Shown in pieces: positions 9,614-62,195 of a stretch of DNA of 64,000 nt. The notes under the pieces were generated by a model. It worked only from the letters and a program-made list of their open reading frames with translations. It was not told the DNA's origin and did not search any database. The position numbers and the translations under genes were made by a program. Numbering within the stretch: the stretch's first letter is position 1; each line of letters opens with the position of its first letter. The DNA comes from a bacterium (lineage in GTDB: Bacteria; SAR324; XYD2-FULL-50-16): assembly GCA_024275165.1 (NCBI GenBank), contig JAJRZQ010000003.1, positions 1 through 64,000 on the forward strand, in the 5' to 3' direction.

Positions 9614-9824
9614 GGAAACTCTGAAAAACGCGGAGTCTCCCGACAAGACAGGGATGCCTTGCCAAATCAAAAAGCGGAACTTGTTGATTCGCGTTGGGAT
9701 TGTGGATTTCATTCCCAACCGAAACAACGGAAAAACTTGACGCGCCCCAGGGGCTATAATCAGCCCGAAGGGCACGAACCTACCGCTTGAGCAAGCGGTA
9801 GGCAAGGAGTTTTTCAGAGGTTCC
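9614..9824. mobile_element. 211-bp MITE, copy 1 (15-bp terminal inverted repeats, TTAA flanks)
   Basis: The element begins GGAAACTCTGAAAAA and ends with its near-perfect inverse TTTTTCAGAGGTTCC. TTAA directly flanks both ends (9610-9613 and 9825-9828), as expected of a 4-bp target-site duplication. An internal palindrome (CCTACCGCTTG, GCAAGCGGTAGG) lies near the right end. A gap-free copy of the same 211-bp length is at 57839-58049, with about 25 mismatches by eye. There is no transposase, so this is a non-autonomous element. A YTAR-type 4-bp target is characteristic of IS5-group elements, so mobilisation by such a transposase is inferred. It lies between the thiolase and acyl-CoA dehydrogenase genes. 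Confidence 0.85.
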
Positions 9825-11903: not shown

Positions 11904-11960
11904 CGCAAAAATAAAGATAAATAACATTTATATTTAAAACCTGCATTGTTGATTCAAGTA

Positions 11961-12758
11961 ATGGAAGATAACAATTTAACTCCTGCACAATATTTTAAAT
12001 TATATCGAGATTTGCTTGGATTTTCAAATCAAGCTGATACAAAGGCATTTTTAACAGCAAAAAATATTTTTCCTAAAATTGATTTTGACTACATGGGGCA
12101 ACTAAATACAAGGTTAGATGAGATTATTCAAAAGTTGAATAAAGCTGTTCATGAATCCTACCAACTCAAACAAGCAGAATTAGAAGTCTTTTTACGGGAC
12201 AAACTATATGAAACCTATGTAAAAATTCAAAAAAACAGCTTACTTCCTCGGTTAAATAATCAAGGTAGAAGACCAGAAAAAGTGTGTTTTTCTTGGTTGC
12301 GAGGATTTGTGATGATGGAGTATTTTACACCAGCACTAGCAAAAATATTTCAATGTAAATTAGAGGATATTAAGTTTGTAGGTGACGACGATATAAGTTC
12401 TTTGGAAACTTTTAAACGAACTCCTACCGCTGATATAGAAATCTCAAGTAAGTATCATGGGAAACTCAGAGTTGAGGTGCAAGCGGGATTTCAAGGAATT
12501 AATGATATTAAAGAACATAAAGTTAGAGAGGCGCAAAAGGTTGCAAGGCAAAAAAACAAAAAAACTATTTGTGTACATTTTGACCTTTTCAACGGGCAAG
12601 TCGCTTTCGTACCTTTGGATAAAATTAAAGAAAACGACCTAAACTGGATAACAAGACAACAAATGGAGGGACAAAGTGTTTTTGCAATAGATCAAAACTA
12701 TTTTAAATGGAGGCTCCTTGATTCAATTCCTGCTATAAAAAACTTGGAGTTGTTTTAA
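11961..12758 (+). CDS. Type II restriction endonuclease (PD-(D/E)xK-like, specificity unknown)
   Basis: The protein has about 265 residues and lies immediately upstream of, and 1 bp overlapping, a C5 DNA methyltransferase, the normal layout of a type II restriction-modification system. The likely catalytic core is PTADIEISSKYHGKLRVEVQ at about residues 153-172: an Asp on one strand, then E-V-Q in place of the usual E-x-K. A Glu-x-Gln version is known from BglII. I do not recognise the specificity family. The gene is visibly AT-rich with codon use unlike its neighbours, indicating transfer. I chose the ATG at 11961; an in-frame TTG at 11946 would add five residues, and neither start has a clear Shine-Dalgarno. 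Confidence 0.78.
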   Translation: MEDNNLTPAQYFKLYRDLLGFSNQADTKAFLTAKNIFPKIDFDYMGQLNTRLDEIIQKLNKAVHESYQLKQAELEVFLRDKLYETYVKIQKNSLLPRLNNQGRRPEKVCFSWLRGFVMMEYFTPALAKIFQCKLEDIKFVGDDDISSLETFKRTPTADIEISSKYHGKLRVEVQAGFQGINDIKEHKVREAQKVARQKNKKTICVHFDLFNGQVAFVPLDKIKENDLNWITRQQMEGQSVFAIDQNYFKWRLLDSIPAIKNLELF

Positions 12759-13882
12759 TGAATAAGTATATTGCCATTGATCTTTTTTGCGGTGCAGGCG
12801 GTTTAAGTGTTGGTTTAAAAAAAGCTGGTTTTTCTTTAGTATTGGCTAACGAAATTGAAAAAGATTTCGCTGCAACCTATCAACTTAACCACCCAGGCGT
12901 AAAGATGATAAATAAAGATATTCATCAAGTTGATTTTTCCAAAGAAATTAAAGCGTTGGGTTCTAGCCCTGTGCATCTTGTGGCTGGTGGCCCTCCTTGC
13001 CAAGGATTTAGTACAGTTGGCGCGAAAAACAAAAAAGATCCTAGAAATAGTTTGTTTTTTGAGTTTTTACGAGCTTTATCAGAAATAAAACCTTTTTATA
13101 TCTTCTTTGAAAATGTGGCCGGGTTTTCAAAGATGTATCAAGGAGAGGCTTACCGTACCTTGTTGTCAGAGTTGGATGCTTTAGAGTATAATGTCATTAG
13201 CGGGGTATTGGAAGCATCGGAGTTTGGACTGCCACAAAAAAGACATCGGACTATTATAATAGGCTGGAATAAACAGTTACCACCAGTTTGCTTTCCTAAA
13301 CCTAATCATTGCGAGAATCCAAATTTTTTAGGTTTGAAACCAAAAATAACTCTGATGGAGGCGATTTCAGATTTGCCTGAATTAGAACTAGGTTCCTTTG
13401 TAAAAAGTTATGCCTCAGAACCTCAAAATCCTTACCAAGAAAAATTACGAAGTCAAGTCAGCGAACTCACTGAGCATAATTGTGCTAATTACGGTTCAAA
13501 AATGCGTGAAATATTATCGCTTATACCAAGTGGAGGAAGCGTGAAGGATCTTCCAGATAGACTGAAACCAAAAAATTACTTTAGCAATACTTACGCAAGG
13601 TTACTACCACATACTCCTTCTCCTACGATAACGCGTAATTTTGGCACTCCTTCTTCTTCACGTTGTATTCATCCTTTTCAAAACAGAGCATTAAGTACTC
13701 GCGAAGGGGCAAGGTTACAAGGTTTTGCAGATGATTTTATTTTTGTTGGTTCAAAGGGGTCGAAAAATTTGCAGATTGGCAATGCTGTTCCTCCAGTTAT
13801 CGGTGAAGTCGTGGCTAAAGAAATACTTCTTAGTTTTGAGCGGAGTCTTGCAGATGCGAAACTATTGCGGGAAATTGGTTGA
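12758..13882 (+). CDS. DNA (cytosine-5-)methyltransferase
   Basis: The 374-residue m5C methyltransferase has its motifs in order: motif I DLFCGAGGLSVGLKKAGF, motif IV with the catalytic Cys GGPPCQGFSTVG, motif VI FENVAGF, motif VIII QKRHRTIIIG, and motif X QIGNAVPPVIGE. The target-recognition region is about residues 200-310 and gives no readable specificity. It protects host DNA from the adjacent nuclease. TAATG links the nuclease stop to this start. Base composition is AT-rich like the nuclease, in contrast with the flanking lipid genes, so both probably arrived together. No integrase, attachment repeat or transposase is visible at the edges. Confidence 0.95.
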   Translation: MNKYIAIDLFCGAGGLSVGLKKAGFSLVLANEIEKDFAATYQLNHPGVKMINKDIHQVDFSKEIKALGSSPVHLVAGGPPCQGFSTVGAKNKKDPRNSLFFEFLRALSEIKPFYIFFENVAGFSKMYQGEAYRTLLSELDALEYNVISGVLEASEFGLPQKRHRTIIIGWNKQLPPVCFPKPNHCENPNFLGLKPKITLMEAISDLPELELGSFVKSYASEPQNPYQEKLRSQVSELTEHNCANYGSKMREILSLIPSGGSVKDLPDRLKPKNYFSNTYARLLPHTPSPTITRNFGTPSSSRCIHPFQNRALSTREGARLQGFADDFIFVGSKGSKNLQIGNAVPPVIGEVVAKEILLSFERSLADAKLLREIG

Positions 13883-19292: not shown

Positions 19293-20273
19293 ATGGCCCC
19301 GCTTTACCCCATGACCTTTCAACTCAAAAAACATAAAATCCCCACCCCTTACCTGGTAGGGCCGGTGGATATCTTCGAGGTCACCACCCAAGGGAAACGA
19401 TTGCTCTTCGATACCGGCCCCCAGACCTCAGAGGCCATGAACTATTTACGCCAACACCTCAAACTGGAGAGCTTAGATTACCTCTTCATTACCCATTGCC
19501 ACCCCGACCATTACGGTCTGGCTCGCTTTATTGAAGAAAACAGCCCGGCCCAGGTGATCTTGTGCCAGCGGGATATTTTGCTCTTTGAACGCTTTGGGGA
19601 ACGAATCGAGTTTTTAGAAAAAGAGTTTCAGGCAATCGGATTTCCTCCCGAATTGATGGCCTATTTTGCGGGCTTGATCCCCCGCTTTCAAGGGGACATC
19701 CCCTTTCCGAAACAGTACCACGCTTTAGAAGAGGTCGCCCAGTTGCTCGAGGAGTTGCAAATCGGCTGGCTCGATTGCCCGGGGCACAGCCAAAGCGATA
19801 TTGTCTATCTTTTGGGAAAAAGGGCCATTACCGGGGATACCCTACTCCGAAAAATCTTCACCGCCCCTTTATTGGATATGGATGTAACCGGTCAGGGCCG
19901 TTTTTCCAACTACCGAGCCTACTGCGCCTCTATTCCTAAATTGATGAGTTTGCAAGATCAGGTGATTCTACCAAGCCACAACGATTATATCGACTCGGTG
20001 GCCGCCCAGATTCGCTTTTATGTAGATAAAACCATCGCCAGGGCGGCAAAGCTGTTGCCCTTAACAAAAAAAGGGCTTGGTGACTGGGAAATTTTACAAC
20101 AACTATTTCCCCAGCATCTGCGACCCAAAGAATACTTTAAACTCTATGTGAAAATCGGGGAATTGCGTTTTTTTCAGGATTTTATCGCCACCCCCCAAAC
20201 CCTGTACCAAGCCTTAGAGAGTCAGGGGATTTTAGATGAGGCCTTGGAGGTGAATTTACAACCTTTTGTTTAG
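19293..20273 (+). CDS. Metallo-beta-lactamase-fold hydrolase
   Basis: The 326-residue protein has the zinc-binding motif THCHPDHYGLARFIE (HxHxDH, about residues 68-73), further ligands in DCPGHSQSDIVY and ITGDTLL, and PSHNDY toward the C terminus. The fold covers glyoxalase II, thioesterase-like and other hydrolases. The nearest recognisable type is the generic MBL-fold hydrolase found at the end of beta-oxidation operons, so a CoA-thioester hydrolase role is possible but unproven. It starts 11 bp after fadE; an in-frame ATG at 19311 is an alternative start. Its stop codon overlaps the stop of the convergent pentapeptide-repeat gene. Confidence 0.88.
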   Translation: MAPLYPMTFQLKKHKIPTPYLVGPVDIFEVTTQGKRLLFDTGPQTSEAMNYLRQHLKLESLDYLFITHCHPDHYGLARFIEENSPAQVILCQRDILLFERFGERIEFLEKEFQAIGFPPELMAYFAGLIPRFQGDIPFPKQYHALEEVAQLLEELQIGWLDCPGHSQSDIVYLLGKRAITGDTLLRKIFTAPLLDMDVTGQGRFSNYRAYCASIPKLMSLQDQVILPSHNDYIDSVAAQIRFYVDKTIARAAKLLPLTKKGLGDWEILQQLFPQHLRPKEYFKLYVKIGELRFFQDFIATPQTLYQALESQGILDEALEVNLQPFV

Positions 20274-20956
20274 GGTTTGCAAACCCCGATGCTCTCTTTG
20301 CCGCAGAGGCGGCCATCCATCCAGCGGGCTCCGGACAGGTTGGCGGTTTCCCATTCCACATCTTTCCAGGTCACGCGACTCAACCAGGCCCCTTGCAGTT
20401 GAGCCTTACCCAGCCTAGAGCCGGTCAGGTCGGCTTGATCTAAGATCGCGCCTTGCAGATTTGCCCCCCGCAGGTCGGCCCAGCGCAGGTCGGCCCGAAA
20501 AAGCAGAGCCCCGCTTAAATCCGCATCCCTTAAATCAGCGCCTTGCAAGCTCGCCCCTTCAAGCTTCGCGCCTTGCAGGCTGGCCCGCAACAAAATCGCC
20601 TCGTCCAGATTCGCTTGGGCAAGCTGCGCTTGGTCTAGGTTGGCCTGGATCAGGCGGGCCTTGACTAGGCTCGCCTGGGTCAAGTCAGCTTGCTCTAAAT
20701 TGGCCTGATTGAAGTTGGCCCCCCTTAAACTGGCCAAAGTAAAATCGGCTTGGGCTAAGTTGGCTTCAATGAAGTTCGCCCCAACCAGAGTGGCTTTAAA
20801 AAACATAGACTTATGTAAATCCAACCCCGCCCCGTTAGCCCGAGGTAGGTGACGACCCGAAAAGTCACAGGCAACGCAATCTTGGAGTTGAGCCTCTTGC
20901 GCCTGCAAAAAAGGGCCGAAAAGGCAAAGGAAAAAAAAGAAAAGGCTCGCTTTCAT
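20270..20956 (-). CDS. Secreted pentapeptide-repeat protein with single cysteine-bracketed module
   Basis: The 228-residue protein has a signal peptide (about 1-20, ending LQAQ-E). CVAC follows at 27-30, then about 35 pentapeptide units of the A(D/N)LxxA type (for example ANLAQADF), which form a right-handed square beta-helix. It ends with the cap WMDGRLCGKESIGVC. The same CxxC opening and W-x-D/N-G-x-x-C-x(3)-S-x-G-x-C ending bracket each of the five modules of the protein at 60420. Its start overlaps the stop of the OmpL47-like gene by 4 bp, so they are made together. The function is unknown; the location is probably periplasmic or surface. The stop is shared with the convergent hydrolase gene. 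Confidence 0.85.
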   Translation of the reverse strand: MKASLFFFFLCLFGPFLQAQEAQLQDCVACDFSGRHLPRANGAGLDLHKSMFFKATLVGANFIEANLAQADFTLASLRGANFNQANLEQADLTQASLVKARLIQANLDQAQLAQANLDEAILLRASLQGAKLEGASLQGADLRDADLSGALLFRADLRWADLRGANLQGAILDQADLTGSRLGKAQLQGAWLSRVTWKDVEWETANLSGARWMDGRLCGKESIGVCKP

Positions 20957-57271: not shown

Positions 57272-57452
57272 AGGAACCTGCTTGGGTATTCGTTTTCGTT
57301 CTCGCCTACGGATAAGGTAGGACGGGCTTAAACATTGAGAAAAGGCAAGATACCTGATTTTTGAAGGCGATTCAAGTTAAATCTTCTCTTTTACGAAGAG
57401 CCAAAAGTAGGTACGCAGCCTAACAAAGAAAAAAGCGCTTGGCAAGGAAGGA

Positions 57453-57746
57453 TTATCCTTCCTTGGCGTCCTGCTCAAGATCATTTTCTTTGGGTTGCGC
57501 TACCTCCGTCAGAGGTGGGGGAGGCTGAGCTGAAAAAGAGGGCTCTTTTTCCGCGAAAAACATCAACGGCAAGGCGGCAAGGCCGATAAAAACGCCGATG
57601 GCTGTCCAAAAACTTCGATGGACAAGCTTCAACTTTTTGGCCAGGAAATAAAATAAACTGCCCTGTAAAAAGTAAAGGCAAAGATAGACAAAGTATAACC
57701 CAACGCCTTCTGGAATCAACCGACTAAAGTGAAGAGACTCAAACAT
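57453..57746 (-). CDS. Small membrane protein
   Basis: The 97-residue protein has two hydrophobic helices (VGLYFVYLCLYFLQGSLFYFLA and FWTAIGVFIGLAALPLMFFA) and a proline- and acidic-rich tail (QPPPPLTEVAQPKE). No family is recognised. The stop region is followed by a plain AT-rich gap. It reads toward the CBS and sdh genes but is separated by 181 bp, so it is probably independent. Confidence 0.55.
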   Translation of the reverse strand: MFESLHFSRLIPEGVGLYFVYLCLYFLQGSLFYFLAKKLKLVHRSFWTAIGVFIGLAALPLMFFAEKEPSFSAQPPPPLTEVAQPKENDLEQDAKEG

Positions 57747-57838
57747 GAAAATGAAGAACCAGGATACATGAAAGTTGCTTGGCGCAGGAGAAAATATAGG
57801 GTAATGTTTTTTCAGGCATCAGTCTAGATCAGGCTTAA

Positions 57839-58049
57839 GGAAACTCTGAAAAACGCGAAGTTTCCCAGCAAGGCAGGGATGGCTTGCCAAATCAAAAAGC
57901 GCGACTTATTGATTCGCGTTGAGGTTGTGGATTTCATTCCCCACCGAAACGACAGAAAAACCCGACGCGCCCCAAGGGCTGTAAGCAGCCCGAAGGGCAT
58001 GAGCCTACCGCTTGAACAAGCGGTAGGCAAGGAATTTTTCAGAGGCTCC
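57839..58049. mobile_element. 211-bp MITE, copy 2
   Basis: This element has the same length, inverted ends and internal palindrome as copy 1 (GCCTACCGCTTG, AA, CAAGCGGTAGGC near the right end). The left flank is TTAA (57835-57838). The right flank is ACAA (58050-58053), so the target duplication has decayed. It ends 30 bp upstream of the start of the cysteine-repeat gene and could supply or block transcription there. An open frame runs through the element on the minus strand in both copies, but it is probably a by-product of the element sequence. Confidence 0.85.
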
Positions 58050-58079
58050 ACAAGTTTATTTTTACGCAAAAAAGGTTCC

Positions 58080-58418
58080 ATGCGCCGCTATGCTTTTTAT
58101 GGAATGTTATTCTGCCTAGCTTATCACCTTTTTGGAGGGATTGTCACGGCCCAGGCGATCGGCCTCGGGTTTTCACCGCAAGACTGCCGGGCCTTGGCGG
58201 CGCAAGACTTTCTTTTGTGCCAAAGCCAAGATTGCCGAGCTGCCCTAAAAAAAGATCCTTTTTTATGCCAAAGCCAAGATTGCCGGGCCTGGGCACAGCA
58301 GGATCCTCATTTATGCCAAAGCCAAGATTGCCGAGCCCTACTGCAACAAGACCCCTTGCTTTGCCAAAGCTCCTTCTGCCGGGCCTGGGTTTACAAAAAC
58401 CCCTTGCTTTGCCCTTAG
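58080..58418 (+). CDS. Small secreted protein of five 16-residue cysteine repeats
   Basis: The 112-residue protein has a signal peptide (about 1-26, ending VTAQA). From Cys36 onward it has five repeats of 16 residues with Cys at fixed spacing, C-x(10)-C-x(4)-C: pairs 36/47, 52/63, 68/79, 84/95 and 100/111. The core reads DCRAxxxxDPxLCQSQ. Ten mature cysteines and no other domain suggest a disulfide ladder or a metal-binding rod outside the cytoplasm. I know no named family. The ATG at 58080 has an AAAGG upstream; an upstream extension of the frame would run into the MITE. At DNA level a 20-mer recurs exactly at 48-bp spacing. Confidence 0.82.
   Translation: MRRYAFYGMLFCLAYHLFGGIVTAQAIGLGFSPQDCRALAAQDFLLCQSQDCRAALKKDPFLCQSQDCRAWAQQDPHLCQSQDCRALLQQDPLLCQSSFCRAWVYKNPLLCP
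58218..58333 (+). repeat. 48-bp tandem repeat inside the cysteine-repeat gene
   Basis: The 20-mer TGCCAAAGCCAAGATTGCCG recurs exactly at 58218, 58266 and 58314. The intervening bases vary but keep the Cys codons. This is a coding tandem repeat that can expand or contract in steps of 16 codons. Confidence 0.9.
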
Positions 58419-58790
58419 TCCATTATAATAAGAGGGAAGAAGTTCCGCCAAATAAATAAGCGTAGAAGTTTGATTTATTTAAATATTATGGATTGCCTTC
58501 CCGGCTCTTCCGGGCTAAAAAACTCTCTGCGTTGTGTTTTGCAAAGGCTCCTAAGCTTAGAGCCGATTCCAGGTTGCTGGTGTTTGCCGCGGCCACCTTC
58601 ATGCTTTCTCCCTTTATTCCTGCAAAGTTGCTGTTAAAACAAAATACTAGTAAACTTTTACCCAGCTTTTACCCCTGCTTTTTCTGGCCTGAATCACCAA
58701 GAGGGCTACACTGACCCCAAAATTCACAAAACCGAAGGGGCGGTAATTTTGCCTTTTCCCGCCCTGGAAAAAACAAATTGGAGAAAGGGG
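58419..58790. other. Intergenic region (372 bp)
   Basis: No convincing gene is seen. A CCCGG, CTCTT, CCGGG hairpin near 58499-58513 has no T-run. A promoter for the lipoprotein gene at 58791 probably lies in the last 100 bp. A short plus-strand frame (58493-58714) lacks coding character and I do not call it. Confidence 0.5.
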
Positions 58791-59222
58791 ATGAAAACAC
58801 GAAATAACCTCAAGATACTTGTAACCCGTTTCGGGTTCGCCTTGCTCTTAAGCCTGGGAGTCATGGCCTGTAAACCCACCACAGACCCCGCCACGGGAGG
58901 GGCGACGGATTCGCCTCCTCCGGGTCTGAGTAGCGCGAAGGCCCTGACTGCCTTTAAGTTTCTAGCGAGCGACAATTCCGCCTTGACCAACGATGTCTTA
59001 GCCTTGATAGATGAAAACAATCGAGCCATCACTGCCAACCTTCCCCCCGGCACGGATCGCAGTGCCCTGGTGACCACCCTGGCTGGAAGCGCTACCTCTG
59101 GCTTTGCCGATGGCACGGGTACGGCCGCGAAGTTTAACTTCCCTCGGGGCATTACCAATAACGGTACTGCCCTTTATATTGCCGACCAATACAACCACCG
59201 TATTCGCAAGCTCACCAAATAA
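58791..59222 (+). CDS. Short lipoprotein with a single NHL repeat
   Basis: The protein has about 143 residues. Its lipobox is LGVMAC near residue 27. A low-complexity Thr/Gly/Pro stretch follows, then an Ig-like region (KFLASDNSALTNDVLALID) and one NHL-type repeat (LAGSATSGFADGTGTAAKFN, FPRGITNNGTALYIADQYN). NHL proteins normally have about six repeats that close a propeller, so one repeat suggests a truncated relative or a repeat that pairs with others. The start has GGAGAAAGGGG directly upstream. It is transcribed in the same direction as the cysteine-repeat gene, 372 bp downstream. Confidence 0.72.
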   Translation: MKTRNNLKILVTRFGFALLLSLGVMACKPTTDPATGGATDSPPPGLSSAKALTAFKFLASDNSALTNDVLALIDENNRAITANLPPGTDRSALVTTLAGSATSGFADGTGTAAKFNFPRGITNNGTALYIADQYNHRIRKLTK

Positions 59223-59380
59223 GGGGGAACCCTTTGCCCCCCCTTAGGGGGGCGACCCCTTCCTAAGCGGCTCCAAAATCAAACCAGGGCTGGGCGCAGA
59301 AAGAATTATTTCTTGGGTTCATCGGGCAAATTTATGGCCTTAAAACTGGAATGAATTTCAGCCTAAAAAACCTCAAAAAA

Positions 59381-59423
59381 AACAAAAACAAAAAAACCTG
59401 AGGGCCCGAAGGCCCCCAGGTTT
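59381..59423 (-). terminator. Rho-independent terminator of the octahaem lipoprotein gene (UUCG loop)
   Basis: On the minus strand AAACCTGGGGGCC, TTCG, GGCCCTCAGGTTT forms a long stem closed by a UUCG tetraloop and followed by TTTTTTTGTTTTTG. It lies about 120 bp downstream of the cytochrome stop. Confidence 0.8.
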
Positions 59424-59480
59424 GCCCTCATCGGCCTGGGGGGGGGATGACCGATGAGAACAAATCCATAACACTTCTAA

Positions 59481-59507
59481 GGAGCCTCTGAGTTTTTCAG
59501 AGTTTCC
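59481..59507. mobile_element. 27-bp palindromic remnant of the MITE family
   Basis: GGAGCCTCTGA joined to GTTTTTCAGAGTTTCC consists of the two terminal repeats of the 211-bp element with the interior lost. It is flanked by perfect direct CTAA repeats (59477-59480 and 59508-59511), the target pattern expected for YTAR-type insertion. Confidence 0.7.
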
Positions 59508-59542
59508 CTAACCCAATCTGAGTTTCTTCAGCAAGGCAAATC

Positions 59543-60259
59543 TCAATCACCACCCAACCACTTGGCTCCATGACAAAGGTAGCAACTGGGGGCCTTTTGG
59601 GTTCCTTTTAAATCCGGGCCATGGCATTGGGCGCAATCGGACGCCGGTGCCGCTTTATGCCCCACGCCATATTTGAGTGCCGTATGATCCGAGGTATCCA
59701 GCCATTTCGCATAGTGACAGCCATAACAGCTTGGGGCGTTGTTGGCCCCGCTTAAACCTGTCCCATGGCAACCGGCGCAGAATCTATCGGGGTCCGTTCT
59801 CCCGGTTCCATGATAGCGCCCCTTAATATTGACCGGATGGCGCGCTTGCAACTCGCTCCAGTTGTCATAGTTATGGCAAGCGTAACAAGAAGGACGCCTG
59901 CCCGAACCTTTCAAGTCCGCGCCGTGGCAGTTGACGCAATCGCCGCTGAAATTCAAGGAGGGCTTGTGCTTTACCCCGCTTCGATTGGCGGTCGGGTCGC
60001 TTGCCCCGGATTTGACTCGGGTATGGTCGTCTTTGCTCCAAATGGCTTCATGGCAAGCATAGCAACTCGGAATCGGCCCATTCCCATTGAGGTTGATCCC
60101 ATGGCAGGCCGTACAGTTCTTGACCCCCTTGTACAGTTTTTTGCCATGCTGAACCCCTTTTTGATCAATGTTGTGCTGGGTCAAGAGGTCTTTGCATCCC
60201 GTCACCGTGAAAAGGGAGAAAACAATAAAAAATAAAAGTAAGGTCTTAAATCTCTTCAT
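59543..60259 (-). CDS. Octahaem c-type cytochrome lipoprotein
   Basis: The protein has about 238 residues and a lipobox FTVTGC near residue 22. Eight CxxCH haem-binding motifs follow (CTACH, CYACH, CVNCH, CYACH, CAGCH, CYGCH, CAQCH, CYLCH), organised as four pairs of similar sequence (for example DCVNCHGADLKGSG then PSCYACH). This is a multihaem electron-transfer protein anchored in the periplasm or on the outer membrane. Partner and terminal acceptor are unknown. I chose the ATG at 60259 because it places the lipobox; the frame is open to 60289. It is followed by a strong terminator. Confidence 0.9.
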   Translation of the reverse strand: MKRFKTLLLFFIVFSLFTVTGCKDLLTQHNIDQKGVQHGKKLYKGVKNCTACHGINLNGNGPIPSCYACHEAIWSKDDHTRVKSGASDPTANRSGVKHKPSLNFSGDCVNCHGADLKGSGRRPSCYACHNYDNWSELQARHPVNIKGRYHGTGRTDPDRFCAGCHGTGLSGANNAPSCYGCHYAKWLDTSDHTALKYGVGHKAAPASDCAQCHGPDLKGTQKAPSCYLCHGAKWLGGD

Positions 60260-60419
60260 AAACTGATTCAACAAATTGTAACCGATCAAAGCAAGGCTAG
60301 AAGCCTAAAATGGAATCTACATGAAGCAAAAATGAAAAATCCTTCATTCCTCATTTTCCGGCACTTGCCTGAGGGGGGGTATTGCTTTAGCATCGAGAAA
60401 AACCCCAGGAATCCTCATC

Positions 60420-62195
60420 ATGAAATGGTTGTACTTTTTCGGGTTGGCCCTTGCTTTCCCCCTCTCCCTTGCTTTTGCCTTCGACCCCCAAGCGGTAGCT
60501 CAGCTCAAGGCGGGCAAAAATTGCTCCCGCTGCGACTTGAACGGAGCCTCTTTGGAAGAGCTCGACTTGAGGGGCAAAGACCTCTCTCAAGCCAACTTGG
60601 ACAACGCAAACATGATGGGCGTGAATTTAGAAAACGCCAACCTCATGGGGACCACTTACGAGCAAACCTTTTTTGAAAACGCCACCTGGGTCAATGGAGA
60701 AGAATGCAAAAAAGGGAGTTTTGGCAAATGCCTTACCCAATCCTTCAGCCGCTTGATGGGAACAAAATCCTGCCCGGGCTGCGACCTCTCTTTTTCTCAC
60801 CTGCAAGGGGCCTATTTGCAAGGGGCTCAATTACCCCGAGCGATTTTAAGAGGCAGCAATTTCAATCAGGCCATTTTAATCAACAGCAATTTAACCGAGG
60901 CGGACCTCTCCGGGGCGGACCTGCAAAAAGCCAATCTAACAGGGGCGACGGTACGGAGGACAAAGCTAACCGGGGCGAAATTGAAAGGGGCCATCTGGGT
61001 GACCGGGAGTAAATGCATCCAAGGCTCTCAAGGGATGTGCCTCACCGAGGAATGGGGCAAACTCATCAAAGAAAAAAGATGCGATCAATGCGTGCTGCCC
61101 TTGGTCAAAAAACCAGGGCAAGATTTTAAAAAAGCGCAGATTCTTGAGGGGGAACTCTCCGATAGTGATTTTTCCAAGTCCGATTTTACGGGGGCCAATT
61201 TAACGGGCAGCGTGTTTATGCGGGCCAACTTGAGCAAAGGGATATTCAATCAGGTAATAGCGGTTAAGGTGAACTTCAACCAAGCAAAACTTGAGGGCAG
61301 TCAATTTATCCATACCGACCTTTCCAACGCCAAAATGAATGGCGCGATTTTAGATCAAGCGGTTTTTAGACAACCCAAGCTCCAAGGGGCGGACATGCAA
61401 GCCGCCAGTTTAAAAAAGGCCTCCTTTGAAGGCGTCAGTTTGCGGGGGGTGGACCTCTCTAAGGCAAATTTAGAAAAAGCGACTTTCGAAAAGGTGGATT
61501 TTGCCGATGCGCGCTTGACCGGGGCGACCTGGATCAACGGGCTGCGATGCAAACCGGGATCTAAAGGCGCCTGCATCACCGAGAGCGTAGAGCGAAGCTT
61601 AAATAAAAGCTGCCCCAAATGCAGCCTGATCTATGCCAACTTTACAGGTCGAGACTTAAGTAAAGCGAATTTGCAGGAAGCTGATTTTTATCGGGCCCAG
61701 TTCAAAGGGGCCAACCTCAGAGGGGCAAAACTCGGCAAAGCTTCCTTTAAAGAGGCGGACTTGCAAAACGCCGACCTCGCCTTTGCCGATTTAACGGGGG
61801 CTCTTTTGAATCACGCGGTTTGGGCCGATGGCAAGCTCTGCCAAAGCCCCTCCATAGGACGCTGTGACACAAAGGCGCTGAAAGAACTCTTGAGTAAAAA
61901 GCGTTGCAGACTTTGCAGCCTGCCCTATGCCAATTTAAAAGAGAGTCATTTGGCCTGGTATGATATAAGGGAATCCAACTTAATGGGGGCGAACTTTCAA
62001 AAAGCGACCTTAACCGGGGTGGTCTTTATGGGCACCAACCTACAAGGGGCGAATTTTAAAAACGCGGTGCTGATCAGCGCCGATTTTACGGGGGCGCAAC
62101 TTCAAGGGGCGGACTTTGCCGGAGCGGATTTGAGTCAAGCGGTTTGGAGCGATGGAACAATCTGTGGGGACAATAGCATTGGAACCTGCAAATAA
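60420..62195 (+). CDS. Secreted five-module pentapeptide-repeat protein with cysteine caps
   Basis: The 591-residue protein has a signal peptide (about 1-20). Five modules follow, each opening with a CxxC pair (C35/38, C118/121, C221/224, C398/401, C496/499) and closing with W-x-x-G-x-x-C-x(3)-S-x-G-x-C (C104, C207, C385, C482, C590 as last Cys). Between these, A(D/N)LxxA pentapeptides (for example ADLSGADLQKANL) form beta-helices. Module length varies from about 70 to 165 residues. The cysteines probably cap each helix by disulfides after export. A one-module relative is encoded at 20270. The function is unknown; DNA-mimic pentapeptide proteins such as Qnr are cytoplasmic and lack this signal and these caps. 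Confidence 0.9.
   Translation: MKWLYFFGLALAFPLSLAFAFDPQAVAQLKAGKNCSRCDLNGASLEELDLRGKDLSQANLDNANMMGVNLENANLMGTTYEQTFFENATWVNGEECKKGSFGKCLTQSFSRLMGTKSCPGCDLSFSHLQGAYLQGAQLPRAILRGSNFNQAILINSNLTEADLSGADLQKANLTGATVRRTKLTGAKLKGAIWVTGSKCIQGSQGMCLTEEWGKLIKEKRCDQCVLPLVKKPGQDFKKAQILEGELSDSDFSKSDFTGANLTGSVFMRANLSKGIFNQVIAVKVNFNQAKLEGSQFIHTDLSNAKMNGAILDQAVFRQPKLQGADMQAASLKKASFEGVSLRGVDLSKANLEKATFEKVDFADARLTGATWINGLRCKPGSKGACITESVERSLNKSCPKCSLIYANFTGRDLSKANLQEADFYRAQFKGANLRGAKLGKASFKEADLQNADLAFADLTGALLNHAVWADGKLCQSPSIGRCDTKALKELLSKKRCRLCSLPYANLKESHLAWYDIRESNLMGANFQKATLTGVVFMGTNLQGANFKNAVLISADFTGAQLQGADFAGADLSQAVWSDGTICGDNSIGTCK

Follow-up and report, generated by a model that had tools for sequence, protein, structure and literature searches.

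The locus at 58080-58418 raises the question of whether a short open reading frame built from cysteine repeats, lying directly beside a transposable-element-like sequence, is a genuine gene, and, if so, to which family its product belongs and what it might do for the cell. The following features of the window, i.e., the whole stretch of 64,000 nucleotides that was analysed, are needed for the argument:

57838..58050, plus strand, MITE-like element of ~212 bp, non-coding, with terminal inverted repeats GGAAACTCTGAAAAA / TTTTTCAGAGGCTCC and a strong internal hairpin at 58003-58028
58065..58079, plus strand, possible ribosome-binding stretch AAAAAAGGTTCC preceding the ATG, by sequence inspection
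58080..58418, plus strand, ORF of 112 amino acids plus stop, five-unit cysteine-repeat protein, predicted secreted, translation MRRYAFYGMLFCLAYHLFGGIVTAQAIGLGFSPQDCRALAAQDFLLCQSQDCRAALKKDPFLCQSQDCRAWAQQDPHLCQSQDCRALLQQDPLLCQSSFCRAWVYKNPLLCP
58080..58157, plus strand, predicted Sec signal peptide, residues 1-26, cleavage after AQA, by sequence inspection
58179..58226, plus strand, unit 1, QDCRALAAQDFLLCQS
58227..58274, plus strand, unit 2, QDCRAALKKDPFLCQS
58275..58322, plus strand, unit 3, QDCRAWAQQDPHLCQS
58323..58370, plus strand, unit 4, QDCRALLQQDPLLCQS
58371..58415, plus strand, unit 5, divergent, SFCRAWVYKNPLLCP

Translation of 58080-58418 agrees with the earlier note, which had described a secreted protein of five cysteine repeats with ten mature cysteines spaced as C-x(10)-C-x(4)-C. 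Secretion is supported in the sense that a Sec-type signal peptide, MRRYAFYGMLFCLAYHLFGGIVTAQA (…TAQA/IG), can be read by eye at the N-terminus of the 112-residue protein. The mature chain has 86 residues, is near-neutral, and carries its ten cysteines with an exact C-x10-C-x4-C spacing. The consensus of the five units is (Q/S)DCRAxxx(Q/K)DPxLCQS, 16 residues long, and both cysteines, the arginine, the alanine, and the leucine preceding the second cysteine are invariant in all five. At the DNA level, Tandem Repeats Finder reports a 48/96-bp array at the gene (score up to 226), and a repeat search also finds successive copies at 48-nt spacing. The exact 48-bp DNA repeats proposed earlier hold for a 20-mer core, TGCCAAAGCCAAGATTGCCG, present at 58218, 58266, and 58314, and not for the whole units, which are 49-77% identical.

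The repeats themselves allowed us to look for selection on the protein. When every unit was compared with every other, so that the codon pairs are non-independent, 28 of the 41 pairs differing by a single base were synonymous in the gene frame vs 9.8 expected. The other two plus-strand frames stayed near expectation (12/48 vs 9.9 and 15/50 vs 13.0), and one antisense frame was also in excess (26/50 synonymous vs 10.0), but it has in-frame stops. The codon use of the repeat gene scores 0.675, with 24 genes of the window spanning 0.667-0.746; this value lies above that of every one of 2000 uniform recodings of the protein (mean 0.532) and fails to distinguish the gene frame from the plus-strand frame one base away (0.666). 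Taken together, the synonymous excess and the codon use support selection at the protein level. Nei-Gojobori counts, in which single pS and pN values are rough owing to the small number of synonymous sites in a 16-codon unit, gave a pS between units of 0.52-0.97, a pN of 0.15-0.27 among units 1-4 and of 0.36-0.46 against unit 5, and a pN/pS of 0.18-0.41 among units 1-4, with the highest values (0.45-0.77) for the divergent unit 5. Because the synonymous sites are heavily changed and the amino-acid sites of units 1-4 are not, the array seems to be old and maintained by selection at the protein level. A recent tandem growth is not supported, given that the synonymous sites between units are near saturation. 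The exact 20-mer is the conserved CQSQDCR core and gives no sign of a fresh duplication. All in all, this looks like a genuine, slowly changing repeat gene.

To which family does it belong? In its own genome the protein matches only itself, and no relative was found in 57 further genomes ranging from close to distant kin, where the weak matches at E values of 0.008-1 do not carry such a repeat of cysteines; a single, loosely spaced match at those loci (L010) was rejected as an unrelated antisense frame. Neither a relative nor a second strain appeared in 51 other genomes of the class or phylum (52 with its own), in a species-level genome collection searched with sensitivity to close relatives only, or among IMG/VR viral contigs and plasmids. 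Pfam, NCBIfam, and the PDB sequences gave no match to the protein, in line with the previous statement that no named family was known for it, and Rfam gave none across 57300-59600. When 84,980 species genomes were scanned for runs of seven cysteines with exactly this spacing, at least 119 stretches came up, and among the matches listed there were only unrelated low-complexity, YTV, HvfA, or chance sequences. The single-unit motif CRAx4Dx3C gave 66 matches within the class outside its own genome vs 26 in the reversed control; those that were read stand alone, e.g., in a YkgJ-like protein, with no repeat protein among them. On these sequence comparisons, the protein fits no known family among those tested and is an orphan with a distinctive unit, although its general type, that of small exported cysteine-repeat proteins, is known. 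The C-x10-C-x4-C spacing as such is not unique, being found also in planctomycete YTV and in HvfA-type proteins of unrelated sequence.

Single-sequence AlphaFold models reached a pLDDT of 54 for the full chain and of 65 for the mature chain (pTM 0.44), the latter being all-alpha, in which QDCRAxxx and PxLC form short helices that recur in most units at low-to-moderate confidence. The PDB fold search with the predicted model retrieved no matching structure (best E value 4.2). The genome has genes for DsbA-like proteins, whose sites read CPHC and CPFC, and a search of it gave no DsbB or VKOR match. A further DsbA/FrnE-like gene (L182:1501-2079; G000:C14:142230-142808) has an in-frame TGA at the expected first active-site cysteine (stop-PFC), which suggests a candidate selenocysteine UPFC site; the 65 nt around and after that TGA show no unusual folding.

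Starting from the observed reading frame, spacing, protein-level constraint, and DsbA-like genes, the weak all-alpha model together with these DsbA-like genes points to a disulfide-stapled helical rod as the most likely mechanism. The precursor would be made with a Sec signal peptide and cut after AQA, leaving the mature chain. Within each unit, QDCRAxxx and PxLC would probably fold as two very short helices, with breaks at Asp-Pro and Gln-Ser. A DsbA-type enzyme in the periplasm would probably oxidise the ten cysteines, and the resulting disulfides would staple adjacent helices together as a short, rigid rod, with the variable mid-unit positions facing outward. We tentatively favour, just short of an even chance, an orphan periplasmic or secreted all-alpha rod of this type, whose role would most likely be that of a stable scaffold or binding surface in the envelope or outside the cell. 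Several observations count against it: the undetected DsbB/VKOR, which bears on the re-oxidation of DsbA, the weak model, the lack of a fold match, the MITE directly upstream with no recognised plus-strand promoter, and the lack of a homologue.

The eukaryotic CHCH (twin CX9C / CX10C) proteins offer a lead for such a fold, with no claim of membership. They are mitochondrial helical hairpins with C1-C4 / C2-C3 disulfides, and they resemble the proposed repeat in having two short antiparallel helices stapled through cysteines ~10 residues apart, but differ in the longer loop between their two cysteine pairs. The repeat protein has no CHCH sequence or fold match in the PDB, and its all-alpha model is of low confidence.

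Ten cysteines in 86 residues of a probably exported protein could also indicate a metal sink in the periplasm, with unmodified thiolates as ligands for copper, zinc, or mercury, the more so as the copper-binding HvfA precursors share the C-x10-C-x4-C spacing. However, the protein has no CxC or CxxC and a single histidine, and its many Leu, Ala, and Trp residues stand at fixed positions, a composition more suggestive of a folded core than of a metallothionein. Moreover, no metal-transport or metal-resistance gene was recognised among the immediate neighbours. We regard a metal sink as unlikely.

These neighbours and others in the window deserve a short description. The CBS-SdhA gene order is maintained in two family members (G002 and G004), in which a peptidase gene lies beyond the CBS gene in place of the repeat gene. 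On the minus strand, 59543-60289 encodes a predicted lipoprotein with many CxxCH haem motifs that matches cytochrome c7/c3 profiles. The genes at 60420-62195 and 20270-20956 encode secreted pentapeptide-repeat proteins, in which pairs of cysteines (CSRC, CPGC, CKKGSFGKC, and similar) mark the module boundaries. Further away, a cytosine-5 DNA methyltransferase-like gene at 11946-13882 adjoins a possible restriction partner, as read from sequence, and the pair sits between fatty-acid-oxidation genes.

The element upstream bears on whether the gene is expressed at all. As the earlier note had stated, a MITE ends ~30 bp before the ATG of the repeat gene: its terminal repeats lie at 57839-57853 and 58035-58049, and it belongs to a genuine repeat family. 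The element is short and non-coding, has terminal inverted repeats, and is present in many dispersed copies, of which 40 scored as near-full-length (~210 bp, 88-94% identity), with weaker pieces bringing the candidates to 126. Matches to the terminal repeat number 127 in this 2.69 Mb genome vs 0 in the reversed control. Another copy lies in the window at 9614-9824, and at 59481-59510 two terminal repeats stand back to back (GGAGCCTCTGAGTTTTTCAGAGTTTCC), apparently what is left of a copy after an internal deletion. The flanks are AT-rich, with no clean target-site duplication across 12 copies, and four stretches surrounding terminal repeats that lie far apart contained no recognisable transposase. 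An ORF from 57879 runs through the element in frame into the repeat gene; this internal frame was rejected as coding because it stays open in no more than 7 of 16 copies, with no excess at third positions. No sigma-70-like promoter site was found on the plus strand upstream of the repeat gene. With the element ending so close to the ATG, the promoter may lie inside the MITE, lie upstream of it, or have been lost. The last case would make this an ORF that is non-functional or not expressed, an old repeat gene severed from its promoter by the MITE and now drifting, for which its orphan status and the pN/pS of its last unit would also speak. We consider such decay quite unlikely, since the frame is open, the signal peptide and all ten cysteines are intact, and the synonymous excess between units argues against it.

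An envelope protein acting by intermolecular disulfide cross-linking, as may hold for the planctomycete YTV cell-wall proteins, is suggested by the spacing itself. The YTV proteins (PF07639; e.g., L153 from Blastopirellula and L104 from Pirellulales) have cysteine-rich tandem 16-residue units with the identical C-x10-C-x4-C, as well as an N-terminal export-like segment, and cysteine-rich members occur in planctomycete cell-wall preparations (PMC8567305). Nevertheless, their sequence is unrelated (CKMVPEKRTKTCTYKVC), and those seen here have ~500 residues and are beta-like (CKPVWETKTRxIC), whereas the repeat protein is short and predicted to be helical. The PF07639 profile gave no match to the repeat protein at E<=10, and the same profile matches the Blastopirellula protein at 8.7e-122. 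In addition, YTV genes are reported in Planctomycetales only (PMC8567305). We judge a cross-linker of this kind improbable.

The HvfA / oxazolin RiPP precursors (NF050137, NF050188; e.g., L131 from Alteromonas and L090 from Lysobacterales) are likewise small, with a signal peptide and tandem C-x10-C-x4-C, but have Gly/Lys-rich EGKCGEGKCGGDK units modified by MNIO enzymes. Neither NF050137 nor NF050188 matched the repeat protein, and the positive controls from Alteromonas and Lysobacterales did match. That our protein is a RiPP precursor with cysteines modified by an MNIO (DUF692) enzyme, as in the bufferins, HvfA, or the CxxxxC family, is highly improbable and largely refuted: it does combine small size, a Sec signal peptide (by inspection), and a repeated CxxxxC motif, as in the MNIO-associated signal-peptide precursors described in PMC12452194, but it has no EGKCG motif and no NCBIfam match, and the genome, 98.35% complete, gave no match to PF05114 (MNIO) in a search that was positive in two control genomes.

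The disulfide-stapled rod that we favour would, if true, be a very small repeat fold. A bolder and unlikely version of it is a new minimal fold, in which 16-residue units of two short helices, stapled by disulfides, stack into a rod; this fold would have arisen in a single bacterial lineage, independently of the YTV and HvfA proteins whose cysteine spacing it shares. Profile libraries have poor coverage of secreted cysteine-repeat orphans, and this one combines a strict spacing with a selection that is visible between its own repeats, although there is no homologue to compare it with. The presence of C-x10-C-x4-C in three unrelated cysteine-repeat groups raises the question of whether there is a structurally favoured 16-residue cysteine period.
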